Below are positions 46,827-61,788 of a DNA stretch of 64,000 nucleotides, in pieces. The translations under genes were made by a program, and so were the position numbers. Under the pieces are notes generated by a model. That model was not told where the DNA came from and did not search any database. It saw nothing but the letters and a program-made list of their open reading frames with translations. Position 1 is the stretch's first letter, and every line of letters starts with the position of its first letter. This DNA comes from Balneicella halophila. Lineage in GTDB: Bacteria; Bacteroidota; Bacteroidia; Bacteroidales; Balneicellaceae. The stretch covers positions 248,001 through 312,000 of the forward strand of contig NZ_QENZ01000004.1 of NCBI RefSeq assembly GCF_003096835.1, given 5' to 3'.

Positions 46827-48877
46827 GTATTAAGAGAGACATAGTTAGAAATGTGCGCATCTTTTGGGCAATTTTAGCATTTTTTGCTTTGCTCATAGTC
46901 GGTCGTATCGTTCAGCTTCAAATGACGCCAGTTAGCGAGATTGGAGCCGTAGCTGTGGAGGTTTATACCACTAAAAAGAAGTTTGCTGCACCTCGCGGAG
47001 AGATTTATGCTAAAAATGGATACTTACTTGCTTGTTCTCTTACTTTCTTTGATTTGAGAATGGATTTAGGAGCAGAAGCGATTACGGATAGTATTTTTAG
47101 TGCTAACGTGGATTCGTTAGCATTGTGTTTAGCTCGTTTATTTAAGGACAAGAATCAAAACGCCTATCTAAGAGAATTAAAATCTGCAAGAAGAAATAAC
47201 GAACGCTATCACTATTTAGGCAATAGGAAGATTAATTATATGGAAGCGGAAAAAGTAAAACGCTTTCCAATTTTAAGAAGAGGGAAATATAAAGGAGGAC
47301 TTATTTTAGAGCAAGAAATATTGCGTCATAGACCTTTTGGTATGCTAGGAGAACGTACTCTAGGTAAGTTGGAAACCAATGCAAAAGGCGTAAAAGTAGG
47401 TGCACTGGGTTTAGAACATGCCTATGAAAGTGAGCTGAAAGGGGTTGAGGGGGTTAGAGAATGGCGAATAGCTCCACGCAATAGAATGGATTTTATCGTT
47501 AAAGAAGCTGTTGAAGGAAATGATATCATTACAACAATAGATGTGGATATGCAAGATCTGGCAGAAAGTGCGTTGATGGAGCAACTAGAACAGTTTAAAG
47601 CACATCATGGTACTGTAACGGTGATGGAAGTTTCCACAGGAGAAATCAAAGCAATTGCCAATTTAGAAATTGCTTCAGATGGGAATTATTATGAACGCAG
47701 AAATCATGCTATTGCTGATGCTGTTGAGCCTGGATCTGTTTTTAAACTTCCATCAATGATAGCTTTATTAGAAGATGGTGTAGTGAAATTGACGGATTCT
47801 ATCAACACAGGAAATGGTGCTCGTCGGTTTTATGGAGCTACTATGCGTGATTATCATGCTGTGGGTAAAATTACAGTTCAGGAAGTCTTTGAAAAATCCT
47901 CTAATGTAGGAACTTCTATGTTGGTACATGCAGCGTATAAAGATAATCCCCAGAGATATATAGACCGTTTATATGATTTGCATTTAGGAGAACCTCTGAA
48001 TTTGAAGATTAAAGGAGAGGGACGTCCGTATATAAAAGATACTAAATCGTCAGCATGGTGGAGTACTTCACTGCCATGGATGTCGGTAGGATACGAAGTG
48101 AATGTGACTCCTTTACATATGTTGACGTTATATAATGCAATCGCTAATAATGGTAAGATGGTAAAACCACGTCTAGTATATGCCATTAAGCGAAATGGTA
48201 AAATGATAAGAGATTTTTCTAAACCTATTGTTATTGACAATAACATTTGTTCAGAAGAAACGGTGAAAAAGTTGCATATAATGCTGGAAGGTGTTGTGGA
48301 GCGTGGAACAGCACGAAATATAAGAGATAGTCGTTATAAAATTGCTGGAAAAACAGGTACTGCACATATTGCAAAAGTTGGTGGTGGATATGATAACCAA
48401 AATTATCGAGCTACGTTTATAGGTTATTTCCCTGCCGATAATCCCAAATATTCTTGTGCAGTTGTTATTGATAAACCCGATAGAAGCATTGGTCGTTTTG
48501 GTGGTAGTGTAGCCGGACCTGTATTTAAAAAAATATCAGACGCCTTGTATGCTAAAGGAATGCTTACTGAAAAAAAGCCTTTAGAATCTGTTCTTGATTC
48601 TACGAGACACCGATTAATGTTGTTGCCTGGTATAAATGAAAGCACAGCATTAGGTAAAGTGATAGGTGAGGAGTTTTTACAAGAAAATTCTCCTATTAAA
48701 AACAGTGAAAGTTTGATGCCCAATGTTGTAGGGATGACACTAACTGATGCAGTTTTTTTATTGGAAAGTAAAGGTTTAAAAGTAAAGGTGCAGGGAAGTG
48801 GACTAATAACCAATCAATCCCTGAAGCCGGGAACTAAAATTGTGAAGGGAACACAAGTAAATATTTATTTATCATGA
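46823..48877 (+). CDS. ftsI: Division-specific penicillin-binding protein (transpeptidase) with PASTA domain
   Basis: The 684-residue class B PBP cross-links septal peptidoglycan. An N-terminal membrane anchor (about 12-28) precedes the dimerisation domain. The transpeptidase carries the three catalytic boxes: SVFK in VEPGSVFKLPSM, SSN in FEKSSNVGTSM and KTG in KIAGKTGTAH. One PASTA domain ends the protein (MPNVVGMTLTDAVFLLESKG). All active-site motifs are intact. It overlaps ftsL and murE by ATGA junctions. Confidence 0.95.
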   Translation: MSIKRDIVRNVRIFWAILAFFALLIVGRIVQLQMTPVSEIGAVAVEVYTTKKKFAAPRGEIYAKNGYLLACSLTFFDLRMDLGAEAITDSIFSANVDSLALCLARLFKDKNQNAYLRELKSARRNNERYHYLGNRKINYMEAEKVKRFPILRRGKYKGGLILEQEILRHRPFGMLGERTLGKLETNAKGVKVGALGLEHAYESELKGVEGVREWRIAPRNRMDFIVKEAVEGNDIITTIDVDMQDLAESALMEQLEQFKAHHGTVTVMEVSTGEIKAIANLEIASDGNYYERRNHAIADAVEPGSVFKLPSMIALLEDGVVKLTDSINTGNGARRFYGATMRDYHAVGKITVQEVFEKSSNVGTSMLVHAAYKDNPQRYIDRLYDLHLGEPLNLKIKGEGRPYIKDTKSSAWWSTSLPWMSVGYEVNVTPLHMLTLYNAIANNGKMVKPRLVYAIKRNGKMIRDFSKPIVIDNNICSEETVKKLHIMLEGVVERGTARNIRDSRYKIAGKTGTAHIAKVGGGYDNQNYRATFIGYFPADNPKYSCAVVIDKPDRSIGRFGGSVAGPVFKKISDALYAKGMLTEKKPLESVLDSTRHRLMLLPGINESTALGKVIGEEFLQENSPIKNSESLMPNVVGMTLTDAVFLLESKGLKVKVQGSGLITNQSLKPGTKIVKGTQVNIYLS

Positions 48878-50322
48878 AAACATTAGCTGGGCTCATAAAG
48901 AATTGTGATGTGAAAAAATATCAAGGAGACTTGGATGTAAAGGTTTCGAGTGTTTGTTTCGATAGCCGAAATGTACAAGAGGGTACTCTCTATGTTGCAC
49001 AACGTGGTACACAAGTAGATGGACATCAATTCATTTCGAAAGCAATTCGTTCAGGAGCGACATGTGTAGTTTGTGAAACCATGCCTCAAACTATCTATGA
49101 TAATGTTACTTATGTTTTGGTTGAGAATACTGCAAGGGCTCTAGGACAGATAGCAAGTTTGTTTTATGATGAACCATCAAAAGAGTTGAAGTTAGTAGGT
49201 GTTACAGGAACTAATGGAAAGACGTCAATAGTGACACTTTTGTATAAAATGTTTAATAAATTGGGCTATAAAGTTGGTTTACTTTCTACGATTGCTAACT
49301 ATGTGGGAGAGAAGGAGCATAAAGCAACTCACACTACGCCCGATGCTGTTCAACTCAATGTATTGTTGAGAGACATGGTAAATGAAGGATGTGAATATTG
49401 CTTCATGGAGGTGAGTTCGCATGCTTTAGTTCAACATCGAGTAGCCGGTGTTCACTTTATTGGCGGTATTTTTACGAATCTTACCCACGATCACTTAGAT
49501 TATCATGAGACTTTTAAATCGTACCTAACTGCCAAAAAATCTTTTTTTGATAAGCTCCCTAAAGATAGTTTTGCGCTTACCAATATAGATGATAGAAATG
49601 GCGAAGTAATGCTTCAGAATACGAAAGCGAAACAGTATGCTTATGCGGCAAAGTCCTTAGGCGACTTTAATGTGAAAATTCTTGAAAGACACTTCGATAC
49701 TACTCTCATGGAATTTAATGGGACAGAAGTTTGGACACAGTTCATAGGTGATTTTAACGCCTATAATTTATTAGCAGTATATGCAACAGCTTGTTTATTA
49801 GATATTCCAGAACAAAGTACTTTAGTTGCACTAAGCACTTTAGAACCTGTAGCTGGTCGTCTTGATACTTATGTCTCAGGCAGTGGTATTACTGCCGTTG
49901 TGGACTATGCACATACACCTGATGCTTTAGAAAATGTTTTGAAAACGCTGAAAGGGATTGTAGATGACGGGCAAATTATCACGGTAGTGGGTGCTGGAGG
50001 GAACAGGGATAAAACGAAGCGCCCAAAGATGGCACGCATAGCTTGCGAATACAGTAACCGAGTGATTTTAACATCTGACAATCCTCGTAATGAACAGCCA
50101 GAAAGCATTATTGAAGATATGTTTAACGGTGTTCCTGAAGAACAAAAACTAGCGACACTTTGTGTTACGAATAGGAGAGAAGCGATAAAAATGGCAGCAT
50201 TATTAGCTGTAAAAGGTGATCTGATTCTGATTGCCGGCAAAGGACATGAAACATATCAAGAGGTTGAAGATAAGCGTAACTATTTTAATGATAAAGAAGA
50301 AATAAAACAAATACTGAACTAG
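48874..50322 (+). CDS. murE: UDP-MurNAc-tripeptide ligase MurE
   Basis: It adds the third stem-peptide residue to UDP-MurNAc-L-Ala-D-Glu. The 482-residue Mur ligase is complete: N-terminal UDP-binding domain, ATP loop [38 protein letters not shown], then [15 protein letters not shown] and SDNPRNEQP. The DNPR motif indicates meso-diaminopimelate as substrate, consistent with dapB nearby. It shows that this lineage still makes normal precursors up to this step, in contrast to the degraded murD position downstream. Confidence 0.97.
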
Positions 50323-50324
50323 CT

Positions 50325-51545
50325 ATGTTATACTATTTATTCAGATATCTTAATGAATTAGACGTTCCCGGTGCTGGAATGTTTGATTACATTTCATTTC
50401 GTGCAGCTATGGCATTGCTATTCGCTCTGATGATAGGAACCCTTTTTGGAAAAAAAATCATTAGAATGTTGCAACGCCAGCAAATTGGAGAAGAAATACG
50501 TGATTTGGGATTGGAAGGGCAGATGCAAAAAAAAGGTACCCCTACCATGGGTGGTCTCATTATAGTGTTGTCAATATTGATTCCAGTACTGCTTTTTACG
50601 AAATTAGATAACATCTATATTATTTTGATGGTAATAACGACAGTTTGGCTCGGTGCATTAGGTTTTCTTGATGATTATATCAAAGTGGTAAGAAAAGATA
50701 AAAGCGGTCTTTCCGGAAAGTTTAAAGTTGTTGGTCAGATCGGTCTTGGACTCATAGTCGGGCTCACTTTCTTTATGAGTAATGACATTGTTGTACGAGA
50801 ACAACTACCCACGGAAATACAAAGTAGTGTGGGGAAATCTAGCCAAACTACAACGATAGATGTAAAAAGTACAAAAACAACCATTCCCTTTGTTAAAAAT
50901 AATGAATTAGATTATTCGAAAATTGTTTCTTTTGCAGGTGAATATCAAGAAATATTGACTTGGATACTTTTTGTTTTCATTGTTATTTTTATAGTAACAG
51001 CAGTTTCCAATGGAGCCAATATGACTGATGGATTAGATGGTTTAGCTACCGGATCGTCTGCAATTATTGGAAGCACTCTACTCGTTTTTGCCTATGTTTC
51101 CGGTAACTTCATCTATGCGAATTATCTGAATATAATGTTTATACCTCACACTGGTGAGTTAGTGGTCTTTATGGCAGCCTTCGTAGGTGCTATGATAGGT
51201 TTTCTTTGGTATAATGCCTATCCTGCTCAAGTGTTTATGGGGGATACAGGGAGTTTGACCATTGGTGGAATCATTGCAGTCTTTGCAATTATGATTCGCA
51301 AAGAATTACTTATCCCAATACTTTGTGGTATTTTCTTGATAGAAAATCTCTCTGTGATCATGCAAGTTTCCTATTTTAAATACACTAAAAAGAAGTTTGG
51401 TGAGGGAAGGCGTATTTTTAAAATGTCTCCATTGCATCATCATTTTCAGGTACAAGGATTTCCAGAGCCCAAAATAGTAACTCGCTTTTGGATTGTTGGA
51501 ATCTTTCTAGCGGTACTCACAGTTATTACCTTAAAAATGCGTTAA
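50325..51545 (+). CDS. mraY: Phospho-MurNAc-pentapeptide transferase MraY
   Basis: This polytopic membrane enzyme transfers phospho-MurNAc-pentapeptide to undecaprenyl phosphate, giving lipid I. The 406-residue protein has [10 protein letters not shown], the [19 protein letters not shown] segment, [28 protein letters not shown] and the HHH motif in [10 protein letters not shown] polar insertion (about 155-200) is common in Bacteroidota. It ends 2 bases before the murD remnant. Confidence 0.97.
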
Positions 51546-51547
51546 AT

Positions 51548-52060
51548 ATGATGATTAAAGAAAAAAATATAAATAATCCATTCATCAATTTAGTTAATTA
51601 TAAGATGATGGCAGCCAAAGAGGCACAATATGCAGAACAATTTGCTGACATGAAGAATGAGCCCAAGCGATTAGAATATTTTCTATCCCTGCGAGGGATT
51701 AATTTTATAGATGATACCAAAGCTCAGAGTATTAATGCAATTTGGTATTCTTTGGAAAGCATGCATTGTCCGGTTACGCTTATTGCTAAAGATATAGATG
51801 ATTTACAAGAATTGCTAAAATTAAAACAACTTTTGATGCTAAAAGTTAAAGGAATTGTTTTTTTGACTCCAAAGAGAAAATACATCAAATTGTTACGTCC
51901 TATGGTCGGCGCTATACATTTTTCCAAAACTATGGATGAGGCTGTAAGTTGGGCATATAAAAATACGGAAAGCGATGATGCTGTGCTGTTTTGTGCGGGA
52001 GTAAAAGTTGATGTGGATAAAGAAAGCAGAATTTTTCAAGAGGCTGTGAGAAAGTTATAA
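51548..52060 (+). CDS. MurD C-terminal-domain-only protein (degenerate MurD)
   Basis: This 170-residue protein occupies the murD position between mraY and ftsW. Residues 10-36 resemble the end of the MurD central domain. Residues 40-72 match the start of the Mur ligase C-terminal domain: KRLEYF for the family HRLEF, INFIDDTKAQS for INDSKATN, and WYSLESM for the YALE helix. The remaining order of strands and helices also follows MurD (TLIAKDIDD, KVKGIVFLTP, TMDEAVSWAYK). The N-terminal UDP domain and the ATP-binding central domain are absent. The C-terminal functional motifs are lost (GG-DKG; SPACASFD-F; RG--F). It is an intact frame in a tight operon, so it may be kept for a non-catalytic role. 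Confidence 0.75.
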   Translation: MMIKEKNINNPFINLVNYKMMAAKEAQYAEQFADMKNEPKRLEYFLSLRGINFIDDTKAQSINAIWYSLESMHCPVTLIAKDIDDLQELLKLKQLLMLKVKGIVFLTPKRKYIKLLRPMVGAIHFSKTMDEAVSWAYKNTESDDAVLFCAGVKVDVDKESRIFQEAVRKL

Positions 52061-52064
52061 TCGT

Positions 52065-53327
52065 ATGAAAGAAAACTTAGGAAATATATTTCAGAATATA
52101 CGAGATCGTATAAAAAAAAGTGATAGGGGACTCTGGTATTCCACCATAGTACTAGCTTTTGTTTCGATAGTGCTAATGTTTAGCACTACAGATACGTTAG
52201 GCGATCCTTGGAAGAATACTTTTGTGCAATTAGTGTTCTTCATTATTGCATTTTTAGTGATGGTAAGTTTACACTACATTCATTATAATCACATACGAAA
52301 GATTGCTACTTACGCCCCATTATTAATTTTGATTTTATTAATAAGTCTCACTTTTTTTGGAGTCACTATAAATGGTGCAAAGCGTTGGATTACTATTCCT
52401 TTCATTGGTTTTACTTTTCAGCCCTCTGAGTTGATTAAGATTCTATTAGTAATCTATGTTGCAAGAACCTTAGCTATTTTTCAAACAGCTAAAGGCTGTG
52501 ATGATGTGGCATTTCGAAGAATCTTCACTGTGACTGCAATAGTTTTTGTTTGGATTGCGACGTCTAATGTTTCTACAGCCATCTTAATGGCACTTACCGT
52601 TTTCATTATGATGGCAGTTGGAAGGATTAGGACAAAATGGATTCTATCACTTTTCTTTGGTGCAATGGCTCTAGTTGCTGTAGTGGTTTTGATAGCTGTG
52701 AATACTGATTGGAGACCAAACATAGGACGGGTAACTACAGCCCTAAATAGAGTTGAACGATTCGTAGCACCCGAAAAGGCAGCTAATCGTGAAGCTGAAG
52801 AGTTTGCCAAGCTTAAAACACCAAGAGAACGGCAAATAGCTCTGGCTAGCAAGCAACGCAGGGAAGATGAAAAGAAACAAGTAGAAGCCGCCAAGGCTGC
52901 TATTGCCACAGGAGGTATAATTGGTAAGGGACCGGGTAACAGCAATGTGCGCTATGTCTTACCATTACCTTACTCAGATTATGTATTTGCGATTATTGTT
53001 GAAGAGTTAGGTTTACTCGCAGCATTTTTCTTAATATTTGCATACCTTGCAATGGTCTATCGTGCTGGAATGATTGCACAACGTTGTACTCGCACATTTC
53101 CCGCATTTTTAGTCATTGGGTTAACCACCATTATTGTATTGCAGGCCTTTATGAATATGGCAGTTGCAGTCAGCCTCATGCCAGTTACCGGACAGCCATT
53201 ACCTTTTGTGAGTAAAGGAGGTACATCGTTACTCGTTACTGGGTTTTCAATCGGAATGATATTGAGTGTGACCTATTGGCTGAAACGGCAAGAAGAAGAG
53301 GAATTAGCAAAACATATTCAAGAGTAA
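52065..53327 (+). CDS. ftsW: Septal peptidoglycan polymerase FtsW
   Basis: The 420-residue SEDS protein polymerises lipid II at the septum with its cognate PBP. It has about ten membrane segments. The SEDS patterns are GAKRWITIPFIGFTFQPSELIK, a charged cytoplasmic/periplasmic loop at about 225-280, PLPYSDYVFAIIVEELG and the C-terminal PVTGQPLPFVSKGGTSLL. It follows the murD remnant by 4 bases. Confidence 0.95.
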   Translation: MKENLGNIFQNIRDRIKKSDRGLWYSTIVLAFVSIVLMFSTTDTLGDPWKNTFVQLVFFIIAFLVMVSLHYIHYNHIRKIATYAPLLILILLISLTFFGVTINGAKRWITIPFIGFTFQPSELIKILLVIYVARTLAIFQTAKGCDDVAFRRIFTVTAIVFVWIATSNVSTAILMALTVFIMMAVGRIRTKWILSLFFGAMALVAVVVLIAVNTDWRPNIGRVTTALNRVERFVAPEKAANREAEEFAKLKTPRERQIALASKQRREDEKKQVEAAKAAIATGGIIGKGPGNSNVRYVLPLPYSDYVFAIIVEELGLLAAFFLIFAYLAMVYRAGMIAQRCTRTFPAFLVIGLTTIIVLQAFMNMAVAVSLMPVTGQPLPFVSKGGTSLLVTGFSIGMILSVTYWLKRQEEEELAKHIQE

Positions 53328-53352: not shown

Positions 53353-54453
53353 ATGAGGGAGCCTAAAATAATCATAAGTGGAGGAGGTACAGGAGGACAT
53401 ATTTTTCCTGCTGTTGCTATTGCCAATGCTTTGAGAGAAGCCCTGCCAGATGCACAAATTCTTTTTGTTGGTGCCGAAGGAAAGATGGAGATGGAACGTG
53501 TACCCAAAGCGGAATATGATATTGTGGGCTTGCCAATTCGTGGTTTTCAACGCAGTAAACCTGTTACATTGCCTATAACTTTGTTTAAACTTCTTAAAAG
53601 CCTTCGTATGGCAAGGAAGTTATTGAAGAAAGAAAATCCAGCTGTGGTCGTAGGTGTAGGTGGTTATGCCAGTGCGGCTGTTCTCCATCAAGCGGCTAAA
53701 ATGAAGATCCCAACTCTGATTCAAGAACAAAACTCATATCCGGGGATTACAAATAAACTACTTGCTAATAAAGCAAAGAAAATCTGTGTTGCTTATGATA
53801 ATATGGAGCGATTTTTTCCAAAGGAGAAGCTTTTTTTTCTAGGCAATCCTATTCGTCAAGATTTATTAGATAAAAATATAGATAAAGTTGAAGCATTTAA
53901 ATATTATGGGCTAGATAGTACAAAAAAGACTGTATTAGTCGTTGGTGGAAGTCTGGGAGCAAGAACTCTTAACGAGAGTTTGAAGAGAAATTTAGACTTT
54001 TTAGGAAAACAAAATTTCCAAATTATTTGGCAATCAGGTGCTTACTATTATGAGCAGTTGAAAGGACAGATTAATGATACTTGTCCATCAAATGTGCATT
54101 TATTTAAATTTTTAGATAGAATGGATTGGGCATACAGTGTTGCTGATATAGTAGTTTCACGTGCTGGAGCCCTAACTATTTCAGAATTAAGTGTTTTAGG
54201 GAAATCAACGATTCTTGTGCCTTCGCCTAACGTTACTGAAGATCATCAGACTAAAAATGCAATGGCGCTAGTGAAAAAAGAGGCAACCATATTGGTTAAG
54301 GATGAAGATGCAGAGCAAAATTTAGTACCGAAAGTAATACAGCTCATGAAGGCTGAAGAAAGGCGTAAGCAATTAGCTACACAAATATTGTATTTTGCCA
54401 AACCCAATGCCGCCAATGATATTGCAAATGAAGTCATTAAACTGATGAAGTAG
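53353..54453 (+). CDS. murG: UDP-GlcNAc:lipid I N-acetylglucosaminyltransferase MurG
   Basis: It adds GlcNAc to lipid I to form lipid II at the inner membrane face. The 366-residue GT-B enzyme has the N-terminal SGGGTGGHIFPAVAIANAL, GVGGYAS, LIQEQNSYPGITNKLL, LGNPIR, VVGGSLGARTLNE and the UDP-site VSRAGALTISEL with PSPNVTEDHQTKNA. All family motifs are intact. The next gene, ftsQ, starts after only 2 bases; murC, usual here, is absent. Confidence 0.97.
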   Translation: MREPKIIISGGGTGGHIFPAVAIANALREALPDAQILFVGAEGKMEMERVPKAEYDIVGLPIRGFQRSKPVTLPITLFKLLKSLRMARKLLKKENPAVVVGVGGYASAAVLHQAAKMKIPTLIQEQNSYPGITNKLLANKAKKICVAYDNMERFFPKEKLFFLGNPIRQDLLDKNIDKVEAFKYYGLDSTKKTVLVVGGSLGARTLNESLKRNLDFLGKQNFQIIWQSGAYYYEQLKGQINDTCPSNVHLFKFLDRMDWAYSVADIVVSRAGALTISELSVLGKSTILVPSPNVTEDHQTKNAMALVKKEATILVKDEDAEQNLVPKVIQLMKAEERRKQLATQILYFAKPNAANDIANEVIKLMK

Positions 54454-54455
54454 GT

Positions 54456-55214
54456 ATGAAGAGAAACCTAAAAAAAATATTATTATTTGGATTGCCATTA
54501 GTTTTACTTCTGGTGTATCTCGCTTTCGCCTTTTTTAGAATTGGACAAGAGGAGAAAGTGTTTAAAGCAAATGGTATTGTTGTGGAAATGACCAATCCTC
54601 AATTTAAGTTTGTTAATAAAAAAGAGATACTAAAGATTGCAGAAAAACAACTTGGAAATACTAAAGATGTAAAATTAGATAGCATTAATAAAAATAGCTT
54701 AGAATCAGCCATAAATAAAAATCCCTTTGTAGAAGATGCACAAGTATTTCGTTCTTCGGACAATGCTTGCAGGATTGAAATAACACAACGCAGTCCGGTA
54801 TTGCGTGTATGGACAGATACAGCATCTTATTATTTGGATAAAGATGGTTACAAAATGCCTACGGGAACAAAATATGCTGCTTTAGTACATATGTACCGAG
54901 GAAATATCTCAGAGTCCTTTGCGCAAAAGGAATTATTACAATTTCAAGCCTATTTGGATGATCATTCTTTTTGGTCTGAAATGATTGATTATATTATGGT
55001 TAATTCTAAAGAAGAATTAACTTTGTATCTGAGGGCAAAATCAGGAAAAATCCATTTGGGTAAGCCTGATAATGTTGCTGAAAAGTTAGAAAAATTACTC
55101 CTTTTTATCAATAAGGTAGGCAAGTTTAATGGTTTGGAGACTTATGAAACCATTGACTTGCGATATGATAACCAAGTAGTAGTTAAAAAAAAGGAAGCTA
55201 ATGCAACGAGATAG
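54456..55214 (+). CDS. ftsQ: Cell-division protein FtsQ
   Basis: The 252-residue bitopic divisome protein has a short cytoplasmic N-terminus and one membrane helix (about 9-27). A periplasmic POTRA-like region follows (about 45-105, including LESAINKNPFVEDAQVF), then a beta domain with TQRSPVLRVWT, the usual FtsQ motif. Its position before ftsA supports this. It overlaps the ftsA start by 14 bases. Confidence 0.88.
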   Translation: MKRNLKKILLFGLPLVLLLVYLAFAFFRIGQEEKVFKANGIVVEMTNPQFKFVNKKEILKIAEKQLGNTKDVKLDSINKNSLESAINKNPFVEDAQVFRSSDNACRIEITQRSPVLRVWTDTASYYLDKDGYKMPTGTKYAALVHMYRGNISESFAQKELLQFQAYLDDHSFWSEMIDYIMVNSKEELTLYLRAKSGKIHLGKPDNVAEKLEKLLLFINKVGKFNGLETYETIDLRYDNQVVVKKKEANATR

Positions 55215-56445: not shown

Positions 56446-57798
56446 ATGGAGTTGCAAATAAACGAGGATTATAAAGAAGAATCTTCCCATAATATAATTA
56501 AGGTAGTTGGTATTGGTGGCGCTGGTAATAATGCCGTAAACGATATGTATGAGCGTAAGGTTGATGGCATCGATTATGTAGTTTGCAATACCGACATACA
56601 AGATTTAAACCATAGTCACGTACCGCATAAATTGCAAATAGGCGTCCGTCTCACAGAGGGATTGGGTGCCGGAAGTATCCCACAATCAGGGAAAGATGCT
56701 GCAGAGGAGAGTGAAGAAGCAATAAGGGAAATGTTAGGAGGAACTACTAAGATGGTTATCCTCACTGCAGGCATGGGTGGTGGCACAGGAACTGGAGCTA
56801 CACCCGTTGTTGCTCGTATAGCTCAAGATATGGGACTCGTTGTAGTATCTATCGTTACTACACCGTTTGGTTTTGAACGCCAGCGATTGAAAGAAGCAGT
56901 TATTGGAATTGAAGTCTTAGAAGAAGTCTCTGATGCACTTTTAATCATCAATAATCAAAAACTGCAACGAATGTATGGTGACTTGTCATTTCCTGAAGCT
57001 TGTGGAAAAGCAAATGAAGTTTTGGTGATGGCAGCTAAGAGTATTTCTGAAATTGTTACAAAAACAGCCGAACAGAATATTGATTATGCTGACTTAGAGC
57101 GTATGCTTAGGGGAAGTGGAATGGCTGTCTTCGGAGTAGGAAGTGCTAAAGGAGGTGAGGATCGCGTCGGTGAGGCGATAAAAGCCGCTTTATACTCTCC
57201 ACTTTTAGACAATTGTGATATTTCTGGAGCGAAAAGCTTATTAGTCAATATTGTATTAGGAGAGAAGCGATTATCTGTGCAAGAGCGCCGTAATGTAGGC
57301 GTCTATATGCGACGTATGGCGGGTAGCTATCATGAAATGAAGCATGGAACCCGTATCGATGAGAATTTAGCGTCAGATGAACTGGTTATTACAATTATTG
57401 CAACGAATTTCTCTGAAAATGAATTAGGCATAACGACCAGAACAGAAGAAGCTATTCCTGCGCACCCCATTGATGTAGAGCATGAGGAAGATAATGATTG
57501 GATGAAAGTAGAGGATGCTCATAAATTGGAAGAAAAAGCAAGAAGAAATCGTGAGCGTAAAGAAAAGCAACGCCAAGCTCGCTTAAAAGCTAAAGAAGAA
57601 GCAGAACGTAGAGCACGAGAAAAGGCATCAATCCCTAAACCAGAGATAGAACAAGAGATTGAGGAAGTAGGAGCTAAACGACCTGATCCAATTGAAAAAT
57701 TGAAAAAGAAAAAAACATCAACGAAGAGAGGCGGTGGAATGCAACAACTGATAGACTTTTTCGGAGGTACTGATGTGAGAGATGATGTTGAGATGTAA
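56446..57798 (+). CDS. ftsZ: FtsZ paralogue 1, intact GTP-binding loop and long charged C-terminal extension
   Basis: The 450-residue tubulin homologue has the first GTP loop GGAGNNA intact at 24-30, the glycine signature GGGTGTG at 111-117 and the T7 catalytic loop NIDYAD at 211-216. The C-terminal half (about 200-330) is diverged from Bacteroidales FtsZ: the T7 context is [13 protein letters not shown] rather than VNVDFADVxTVM. Residues about 350-400 form a strongly charged Lys/Arg/Glu helix, then a K-rich tail ending [16 protein letters not shown] do not recognise the usual C-terminal FtsA-binding peptide. The second ftsZ begins 11 bases downstream. Confidence 0.93.
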
Positions 57799-57809
57799 AC
57801 TTAATATTT

Positions 57810-59057
57810 ATGGAACGTAGCGTTATTGATATGATTACAGATAAGCAACATGCTTCTATCATCAAGGTGGTGGGGGTTGGGAGTTTCGGTGTTCGTGCTC
57901 TAAATTATATGTACGAAAAAGGAATAAAAGGAGTTGACTTTTTTGTATGTAATACGGATATGCACGATCTCAACAAGAGTAAAGTTCCCGTTAAAATACC
58001 TATTGGTACCAAAACTCTTGAAGGCTTTGGTGCTGGAGGAGATCCTAAAAAAGGTGAACAAGCCGTCATTGAAGACCACGAGAAAATTGATGAGATTTTT
58101 GAGCAATATGCTAAAATGGTTTTTATTGCCGCAGGTATGGGGGGAGGCACCGGAACAGGTGCTGCTCCTATGATAGCTAAAATTGCCAAAGAAAGAGGAT
58201 TGCTTACAATCGCAGTGCTTTCATTGCCACCTATTGATGAAGGTGAAGCACGTATGGAAGTGGCTCTAAATGGCATCAGAGAGGTAGCAAAGTACGCGGA
58301 TTCAGTTTTGATTATCAATAATGAAAAAGTTTTTGAATTGGCTGATTCTGAAGACAACTTTTTTGAAGCTAAAGAAAGTGTCTATAGAGTGTTAAATACA
58401 GCCGTAAAAGGCATTTCTGAATTAATCACCGTACATGGACATATCAACCTAGATTTTGCTGACGTGCGTACAGTTACCTTAAATTCTGGAGTTGCTGTTA
58501 TGGGTGCTGCAACTACCTCGGGTCCAGATAGAGCCTTAGAAGCAATAAAAAAGGCATTAACCTCGCCACTGCTAATGAGTAGTGATGTACGTAAAGCAAA
58601 ACAGATTCTTTTGAATATATCATTCAATCCATCGCCAGAACATGCTATTAAATTAACAGAATTGGATTATATTGCTAATTATGTAGATAGTGCAATTGGT
58701 GAAGATGCAAATATTATCACAGGAGTGAATTATGATGAAAGTCTAAACGACCAAGTATCTGTAACGATTATTGCAACAGGTTTTGAATTGGAAGGTGTTT
58801 TAGACAAACGCTACTTGTCAGTGAATGTAAATCCGTTTGGCTCTGTAGCAACACCAACAGCCAAAGCTGATAAAGATGATACTGGAAAAGTGCCTATTTT
58901 TGAAGGAGAAAGGGTGTGGGTGACTCCTTCATTAACAGAGGCGCAGATTTTGGAACTCACAAAAGAGCCAGCACACAAAAGAACACAGTCTAAGATTTTT
59001 TCAAAAAGACGTTTTAATGGTCCGGTCAAGAAATATGAATTAAAAGAAAAAGAATAA
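57810..59057 (+). CDS. FtsZ paralogue 2, degenerate first GTP-binding loop
   Basis: The 415-residue second FtsZ is aligned residue for residue with the first over the N-terminal 117 positions. The loop at 24-30, GGAGNNA in paralogue 1, is GSFGVRA here, losing the Gly and Asn contacts to the nucleotide. GGGTGTG at 111-117 is intact, and the T7 loop NLDFAD at 213-218 keeps both catalytic Asp. Its C-terminal half (ELITVHGHINLDFADVRTVT, then SPLL, KQILLNIS and VSVTIIATGF) is closer to typical Bacteroidales FtsZ than paralogue 1 is. The tail is basic and ends KKYELKEKE. It could be a partner subunit or regulator of paralogue 1. Confidence 0.92.
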   Translation: MERSVIDMITDKQHASIIKVVGVGSFGVRALNYMYEKGIKGVDFFVCNTDMHDLNKSKVPVKIPIGTKTLEGFGAGGDPKKGEQAVIEDHEKIDEIFEQYAKMVFIAAGMGGGTGTGAAPMIAKIAKERGLLTIAVLSLPPIDEGEARMEVALNGIREVAKYADSVLIINNEKVFELADSEDNFFEAKESVYRVLNTAVKGISELITVHGHINLDFADVRTVTLNSGVAVMGAATTSGPDRALEAIKKALTSPLLMSSDVRKAKQILLNISFNPSPEHAIKLTELDYIANYVDSAIGEDANIITGVNYDESLNDQVSVTIIATGFELEGVLDKRYLSVNVNPFGSVATPTAKADKDDTGKVPIFEGERVWVTPSLTEAQILELTKEPAHKRTQSKIFSKRRFNGPVKKYELKEKE

Positions 59058-59512: not shown

Positions 59513-59534
59513 AAAATTTTCTCATTGTTTATGC

Positions 59535-59542
59535 TATTTTTG
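59535..59542 (+). promoter_or_regulatory. Promoter -7 element of the glnN pseudogene
   Basis: TATTTTTG matches TAnnTTTG, 53 bases before the old start codon at 59596. The promoter therefore looks intact although the gene is broken. Confidence 0.5.
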
Positions 59543-59595
59543 TAAAAACATTCGAAGAATATTCGATTTAGTATTTACAGAAGTAAAAGATATCT

Positions 59596-61788
59596 ATGGC
59601 GCACATTAGGTTTAGAGCTGTCGAAGAAGCTCAAAAAAGAGAATTACAATCAATAGTAGAAAATTGTGAAAATATATCAGACATCTACGGAGTAAATGTT
59701 TTGATTGTAAGAAAATGAGAAACTATCTTGAGAAAGATGCTTATGAGAGTGTGATAAATGCTATAGATGAAGGAAGAAAAATAGACAGACCGCAAGTCAA
59801 GTAGCATCGGCAATGAAAACGTGGGCAATGGAAAGAGGAGCTACCCATTATGCGCATTGGTTTCATCCATTGAATGGTGCTACTGCAGAAAAACATGATG
59901 CATTCTTTTCCCTCACAAAAGATGGTAATGCCGTAGAAAGTTTTAATGGAAATTTATTGGTGCAACAAGAACCCGATGCATCAAGTTTTCCGAATGGCGG
60001 TATTCCTAATACCTTTGAAGCACGTGGATACACTGCTTGGGATCCATCTTCACCCGCGTTTGTCTTAGACCAAACACTTTGTATTCCCACTATATTTATT
60101 TCCTATACAGGAGAAGCACTAGATTTTAAAACGCCATATTTAAAATCACTTTTAGCCATTGACGAAGCAGCTACTGAGGTTTGCAAATTCTTTAATAGGG
60201 AGGTGAAAAAAGTGCAAGTAACGCTGGGTTGGGAACAGGAATACTTTTTAGTAGATGAAGCACTTTATAATGCACGTCCTGATTTAGCACTTTGCGGGCG
60301 TACCTTAATGGGACATTCAGCGGCAAAAGACTAACAGCTTGATGATCATTACTTTGGAGCCATTCCAGAGCGTGTGAGTATATTTATGCGACACTTTGAA
60401 CGAGAAGCTTATAAACTAGGAATACCTGTAAAAACTCGCCATAATGAAGTAGCACCTAATCAGTTTGAGTGTGCACCAATTTTTGAAGAAGCGAACCTTG
60501 CAGTTGATCATAATCAGTTAATTATGTCTTTGATGGAGAAAATTGCCCATAAGCATAAATTTAAAGTCTTATTACACGAAAAACCTTTTAAAGGAATCAA
60601 TGGTTCTGGAAAACATTGTAATTGGAGTTTACTTACTGACACGGGTGTAAATTTATTATCCCCGGGAGGCACTCCAAAAAATAACACCCAATTTCTAGTT
60701 TTTTTAGTAAATACGATAAAGGCAGTGTATGACAACAGCGGTTTATTAATCAGTAGTATTATTGATGCAGGAAATGCACATCGTTTAGGTGCACAGGAAG
60801 CGCCACCAGCTATCCTTTCCGTATTTATAGGTAGAACACTCGATCAACTTTTGAATGATATTGAAAATAGTATTGCTATCGACGAAATGAGTTCAGAAGA
60901 GAAAACAGAGCTTAAACTCGATATTGCAAAAATTCCAGAAATACTTTTAGATAATACTGATAGAAACAGTACTTCTCCATTTGCATTTACAGGCAATAGA
61001 TTTGAGTTTAGAGCAGTCGGCTCTACACTACAGCTAACTGTGCATCACCGCTCACGATTTTGAATACCGCTGTCGCTCATCAATTGAATAGTTTCAAGAA
61101 ACGTGTTGAGGATTTGGTTAAATCAGGCGTGAAAAAAGACGAAGCTATTTTAAAGTCTATTCGCAAAGTAATTATTGAGTCCAAGAACGTTCGTTTTGAA
61201 GGTAATGGATACAGTCAAGAGTGGTTTGATGAAGCCCTTCGCAGAGGTTTACCTAATATTCCTAGTGCAGTAGAGGCATTCAAGGTCTTTAAAGATGCAT
61301 CTTCAGTGAAAATACTGACGGATTATGGAGTGTTGAGTGAACGTGAGTTAGAGGCACGTTTTGAAATCAACAACGAGATTTATACGAAGGTTGTTCAGAT
61401 AGAGGCACGTGTGCTTGGTGACTTATCAATAAACCATATCATTCCAACAGCTATAGCTTATCAAAATGTTTTAATTACTAACGTTAAGGGAATTAGAGAA
61501 TTATTTTCTGATGATGAGGATTATCAAAATCTCGCCGGATCACAATTGAAGAGCATTAAAAAGATATCTAAACATGTAAAAGCTATAAGAGAAATGGTGA
61601 AAGAATTGGTGGAAGTTCGTAAAGAATCTAATGCTATTACAGACCTACCAGAACAGGCAAAAGCATACTCGACGAAAGTAAAACCATATTTGGAAAAAAT
61701 CCGCTATCATATTGACAAATTGGAATTGATTGTTGATGATGAGATGTGGACGCTTCCAAAGTATCGTGAACTCCTTTTTATTCATTAA
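59596..61788 (+). pseudogene. glnN: Glutamine synthetase type III, broken by four lesions
   Basis: Read across frames, this is a full-length (about 730-codon) type III glutamine synthetase: ATP-dependent amidation of glutamate. Homology starts MAHIRFRAVEEAQKR and includes GATHYAHWFHPLNG, EARGYTAWDPSSPAF, GWEQEYFLVDEALY, KTRHNEVAPNQFE, NGSGKHCNWSL, TGNRFEFRAVGS and RVLGDLSINHIIPTA. Four lesions break it: a one-base loss in a T run near 59699-59702; a second frameshift near 59790-59791; an in-frame TAA at 60332-60334 replacing a Gln codon; and a tandem CTACA duplication at 61023-61032. The longest surviving piece is about 240 codons. The decay looks real rather than sequencing error because the lesions are of different kinds. 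Confidence 0.9.

Follow-up and report, generated by a model that had tools for sequence, protein, structure and literature searches.

The open reading frame at positions 51548..52060 (+) of the window, i.e., the whole 64,000-nucleotide stretch analyzed here, is an intact homologue of the C-terminal part of MurD located in the murD slot of the dcw cluster. The MurD tail probably serves a separate function. C-terminal-only MurD proteins of this kind (half-MurDs) recur in the same slot across the order, and the region of full-length murD at which they begin resembles a start site.

The first-pass annotation had described a 170-codon gene lying intact and tightly packed between mraY and ftsW, and this was confirmed. 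The frame is open throughout from an ATG start to a TAA stop, with mraY (50325..51545, +) ending 2 bases 5' and ftsW (52065..53327, +) starting 4 bases 3' of it. In the start region (51533..51550, +), positions -11 to -15 and -3 relative to the ATG at 51548 are all A, which matches the initiation pattern reported for Bacteroidota (PMC6847099). Overall, the dcw genes of the window are ordered mraZ-mraW-ftsL-ftsI-murE-mraY-[half murD]-ftsW-murG-ftsQ-ftsA-ftsZ-ftsZ, where the names of mraZ, mraW, ftsL and ftsA were assigned by reading the sequences. The gene murE (48874..50322, +) encodes an intact DAP-adding ligase (NF001126, 612.8 bits). Two ftsZ genes are arranged in tandem (56446-57798 and 57810-59057), and both score above the FtsZ family cut-off. 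Further 3' of the intact half-murD, positions 59513-61788 contain a broken gene for a glutamine synthetase that resembles type III in sequence; its start is missing, a stop codon interrupts the frame near 60332, and a frameshift follows near 61050. It is either a pseudogene or an assembly error.

The segments KRLEYF, DDTKAQS and WYSLESM, noted earlier as reminiscent of MurD, were all found in the half-MurD, and the likeness to the MurD tail was above chance with two profile models. NCBIfam TIGR01087 matched over profile positions 271-415 with an E-value of 8.4e-13, although the score missed the family cut-off (48 vs. 212 bits). An HMM of the C-terminal parts of 47 full-length Bacteroidota MurD relatives, from which the window sequence was left out, matched over positions 11-182 with an E-value of 9.1e-27; the next best frame of the window was MurE with 6e-4. 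The profile search against Mur_ligase_C that had been proposed as a check gave a mixed outcome, as the Pfam model (PF02875) alone remained below its threshold (19.2 bits vs. a cut-off of 28.4; E 0.0023), whereas the HMM of the relatives was clearly positive. The proposed structure comparison supported the homology: the AF2 model, which was helped by an input alignment including true MurDs, reached a mean pLDDT of 82 (about 92 over residues 41-170), and its first matches were MurD crystal structures (4buc, E 2.4e-8). In this model, the half-MurD has the fold of the Mur ligase C-terminal domain (PF02875).

Ahead of the C-domain, the half-MurD also keeps the end of the central domain, about 40 residues in length; the UDP-MurNAc N-terminal domain and the P-loop ATP central domain are both missing. 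In the alignment, the D-Glu site lysine equivalent to K348 of E. coli and the SPACASFD loop are lost. The earlier statement that all C-terminal catalytic signatures had gone was correct for the GGxDKGND loop and SPACASFDLF, but R and E of HRLE as well as D and K of DSK remain. Profile search, alignment and AF2 model all indicate a non-catalytic C-terminal part of MurD with 170 aa and, judged by its sequence, the half-MurD alone cannot be a ligase.

The host genome comprises 2.09 Mb in 11 contigs and is the sole genome of its family in the sample. Profile searches of this 98.2% complete genome detected none of full-length MurD, MurD2, MurC, MurI and MurL. The suggestion that a full-length murD had moved elsewhere therefore fails for the host. 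Only four Mur central domains were found, namely those of MurE (in the window), MurF, FolC and an Mpl/MurC-type ligase. A separate gene for the N-terminal half of MurD was also considered and ruled out, as there is no spare central domain. The Mpl/MurC-type ligase shares 23% identity with dcw MurCs, as compared to 45% among dcw MurCs, and carries an insert where the Mpl signature (described in PMC3060825) is located. Its NCBIfam scores are below both cut-offs and do not settle its identity; on the basis of its sequence it was read as Mpl. Two genes of the EPSP-synthase family are present, as expected for MurA plus AroA. Hence, the host keeps murE, murF, mraY, murG, a MurA-type gene and the Mpl-type ligase (murE, mraY and murG in the window; contigs C3, C4 and C5).

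In the window, the end of murG (53353..54453, +) abuts ftsQ (54456..55214, +), the FtsQ-type POTRA domain of which is just under the cut-off. In relatives, murC is found at this place. Since no gap separates murG and ftsQ (53353-55214), murC was lost from the cluster rather than hidden in an assembly gap there. A loss of murC common to the host and family f2 was considered, but is unsupported because the f2 cluster (L242-L245) is interrupted downstream of ftsW; mraY, the half and ftsW nevertheless remain together in it. As far as these searches show, the host would have no known route for adding L-Ala and D-Glu to UDP-MurNAc, i.e., the genes found would not allow its wall peptide to be built by a known pathway. 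Salvage of a ready-made stem peptide via the Mpl-type ligase is possible and comes to mind first; the retained MurE does not fit neatly with tripeptide salvage.

A search of one genome per family (80 families of the same order) revealed that several other families, too, have a MurD reduced to its C-terminal part in this slot. Among 107 dcw clusters, obtained from order-wide searches and fetched loci and including some from MAG assemblies, 46 contain a half-MurD of about 170-190 aa (typically about 182) between mraY and ftsW. Flanking was scored wherever both sides were present in the locus, and mraY was the 5' and ftsW the 3' neighbour in every half-MurD locus covering the respective side. The half-MurD of the window agrees with this group in length, gene order and start position (at the internal Met or close to it), but not in the co-occurrence with MurL, for which its genome has no match. 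MurL was present in every other half-MurD genome, i.e., in all 18 other families, accompanied by MurD2 where this was checked. In spirit, the idea that murD moved elsewhere thus holds for these families. MurI above its cut-off never occurred together with MurL in the 80-family sample. The alternative MurD2-MurL route was characterized in Xanthomonas, where the L-Glu specificity of MurD2 is set by two residues, D182E and K348R (PMC8788868). All nine Bacteroidales MurD2 proteins checked carry both residues, and the MurD2 proteins of the relatives possess their own complete C-domains. The presence of MurL, the exclusion of MurI and the MurD2 residues make it likely that MurD2-MurL replaced MurD in the half-MurD lineages other than that of the host.

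Several further observations concern this route. MurL was found in 123 of 393 Bacteroidales genomes (e.g., L057, L060 and L062), a wide occurrence that is new relative to the taxon list for MurD2-MurL in PMC8788868, where no Bacteroidota are named. Many MurL-positive genomes without MurI (L179-L190 and others) keep a dcw MurD of the D-Glu type that is full-length and seemingly intact. In two MurL-positive families (f77, and G019 of f20), at least one genome showed neither half nor full-length murD; these families may tolerate complete loss, or the loci may be unassembled. The dcw cluster of f77 is scattered. In G078 (C12:29769-32381), matches to MurL and MurD2 lie within a single open frame of about 885-921 codons, which likely encodes a MurL-MurD2 fusion protein; such a frame also occurs in G182, G272 and G339 (family f79). 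A literature search for MurD truncations or internal starts in murD found nothing relevant. The sole paper on a "truncated MurD" dealt with a yeast two-hybrid construct.

When mapped by parsimony onto a tree of MurE, MraY, FtsW and MurG, the half-MurDs have 17 origins. Eight MurL-positive half groups (f120, f6, f94, f49, f100, f117, f73 and f34) stand beside full-length sisters with a support of at least 0.95, and several of these sets fall inside one genus or family. The tree points to at least eight well-supported, and up to 17 putative, separate truncations. The host genome nests with a support of 1.0 in a clade that is otherwise full-length and MurL-negative, and its truncation therefore appears to be separate. 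Most halves start at the Met of M-x-[IL]-x-x-L, a motif present in about 90% of full-length MurDs; in a few divergent families the start lies a few residues off.

The context of this internal Met was analyzed in full-length murD genes. Low structure and A at -3, -12 and -13 are reported to determine initiation in Bacteroidota, with such a pattern promoting it in Flavobacterium johnsoniae (PMC6847099). In the codons from -8 to +8 relative to the internal Met, A, and no other base, was in synonymous excess. The excess amounted to +0.064 in 38 MurL-positive Bacteroidales (p 6e-8; median rank at 6% among the windows of each gene), where this p-value, like all others of these tests, is optimistic and indicative only because the genes are related. 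In the separate set of 69 other Bacteroidota, taken as controls from a scan that yielded only full-length MurDs, it was +0.043 (p 6e-12), while no A excess was observed in 17 MurL-negative Bacteroidales, the group of the host (p 0.23). The mRNA at the internal Met was less structured than synonymous shuffles, with z of +1.36 (MurL-positive) and +1.09 (other Bacteroidota) as compared to about -0.2 at random positions (p 1e-8 and 9e-12, respectively); MurL-negative Bacteroidales showed a weak low-structure signal (p 0.011). Among 22 conserved in-frame Met columns from murD, murE, mraY, ftsW and murG (murC was examined and had no qualifying column), the internal murD Met was the sole outlier, with an A excess of 0.063 and z of 1.41; the next best column reached 0.010 and 0.11. 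A was more frequent at -13 than the amino acids would predict, and at -12, -11 and -3 it was high through the choice of amino acids, as reported for Flavobacterium starts (PMC6847099). The tests were devised after the common start of the halves had been seen, which likewise makes the p-values indicative; the effect was also present in the separate set of other Bacteroidota. As read from these signatures, the internal Met of full-length murD has the start-like context of Bacteroidota, which is absent or weak in MurL-negative Bacteroidales.

Four other explanations for the half-MurDs were weighed. The uniform boundary and length could reflect a single ancestral half-murD cassette that spread by transfer among lineages, and the most divergent halves do cluster in a tree of C-domains, mostly with low support and on long branches. 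However, the halves of f6, f49, f73, f117 and f120 group in this tree with the full-length C-domains of their own families, which argues for truncation in place, and the genes on either side show the same family relationships. The cassette is refuted for these five families and highly improbable for the remainder. Even less credit is given to a split enzyme, in which the N-terminal and central half of MurD, encoded elsewhere, would rejoin the C-half as a ligase. Two-piece enzymes do exist generally, but the Mur central domains of the host belong only to the four proteins named above, the K348 equivalent and SPACASFDLF are lost, and the MurD2s of the relatives have C-domains of their own. A role in cis only, with the 3' part of murD kept as a promoter carrier or as a translation coupler between mraY and ftsW, would be in line with the tight packing of the ORF in the window, and dcw genes are usually co-transcribed. 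This is improbable, as selection acts on the amino acids beyond the mere reading frame, the spacing varies among loci (half-mraY from abutting to 274 bases; half-ftsW from overlapping to about 90 bases), and the density of promoters and terminators is not unusual.

The main rival is a functionless remnant in slow decay, i.e., a gene cut from its 5' side once the ligase had become redundant, the rest of which is eroding. In favour of this, catalytic loops erode progressively, and after truncation, the rates of the halves relative to their neighbours rose 1.1- to 4.8-fold. In favour of a retained, non-ligase module, the ligase residues are lost (Lys at the position of E. coli K348 is present in 100% of full-length proteins vs. 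22% of halves, and the His of GxHN drops from 100% to 2%), while a set of core and ligand-site positions is conserved at 87-100% in the halves. Speaking against decay, the half-MurDs across relatives are under purifying selection: the dN/dS comparison that had been suggested as a check yielded values of 0.054-0.219 and not near 1, with bootstrap upper limits of 0.10-0.35, for the six pairs with measurable dS, which came from five families other than those of the host and of G038 (one genome each). These values are in or slightly above the range of the neighbouring wall genes. Moreover, many independent truncations end at the same Met, the frames are intact throughout families f2, f32, f58, f71, f79, f100 and f101, and the broken glutamine synthetase in the same window shows real decay by contrast. 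For the halves as a group, slow decay is hence unlikely, though it deserves more weight than the other three explanations; for the copy in the window, decay is possible. This copy is 33% identical to reference C-domains, which share 65% among themselves, while its neighbours show normal divergence, and its rate excess is 4.3-fold. Its 170 codons are free of stops, although about 7 would be expected had it decayed neutrally to this identity (P0 <1%). It evolves unusually fast and may be weakening or in partial decay. The proposal of the first-pass annotation that the half is retained for a non-ligase role is thus favoured across relatives by the same piece in the same slot, repeated truncation, low dN/dS and the internal-start signature, and tempered by the possible decay of the copy in the window.

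The explanation preferred here is that the ORF of the window is a translated and selected stand-alone C-terminal module of MurD, termed MurD-C. Full-length murD of Bacteroidota would contain an in-frame internal start at the Met of M-x-[IL]-x-x-L-[AS]-L-x-G-x-H-N, yielding a product of about 182 aa beside the ligase. Once the ligase was dispensable, in most families via replacement by MurD2-MurL, the codons between mraY and the internal Met would have been deleted, and the nested gene would have stayed. The host genome appears to lack the D-Glu branch, namely murI, murC and the N-terminal and central domains of murD, and MurD2-MurL as well. MurD-C retains the fold along with a few residues of the ligand site, whereas those of the D-Glu ligase are gone, and it may act as a binding or adaptor subunit for MurE, MraY, MurG and FtsW in lipid-II assembly. 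Binding to these proteins, rather than to MurD or MurL, is suggested because of the constant place between mraY and ftsW and the loss of ligase residues, and because the half is retained in a genome without any D-Glu ligase. We consider it fairly likely that a C-terminal gene with a non-ligase role is nested in murD and that truncation leaves only MurD-C. The broader view that murD of Bacteroidota is a dual-product gene, the second, ligase-independent product of which serves wall assembly and is kept when the ligase is replaced or lost, is favoured by a narrower margin over its negation. MurD is a classic essential wall enzyme and drug target. If the view is true, murD knockouts that were read as affecting one function may cover two, across a large phylum, and the lineages that lack the ligase and keep the tail would be ready-made natural separations of function.

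With the MurD2-MurL route of Xanthomonas (PMC8788868), the half-MurD loci share the presence of MurL in the 18 families, but the replacement enzyme is encoded elsewhere in the genome and is not the half, and the route was not found in the host genome. The half-MurD resembles the MurD ligase in C-terminal domain homology, dcw position and predicted fold; it differs in having neither UDP-MurNAc nor ATP domain and in the loss of D-Glu and catalytic residues. In-frame internal starts are known from E. coli, where IF2-2 and short CheA are made as shorter proteins from the same gene. MurD-C would be comparable in this respect; however, half-MurD lineages repeatedly dropped the long form and kept the short one, and internal initiation is deduced from signatures. 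A Mur-ligase relative with a structural role is the MurE-like subunit of plastid RNA polymerase, and complexes of this type appear among the structure-search matches of the AF2 model. There, too, the Mur ligase fold is used without the ligase reaction, but in another context, whereas the half-MurD is a C-domain alone, encoded in a wall operon.
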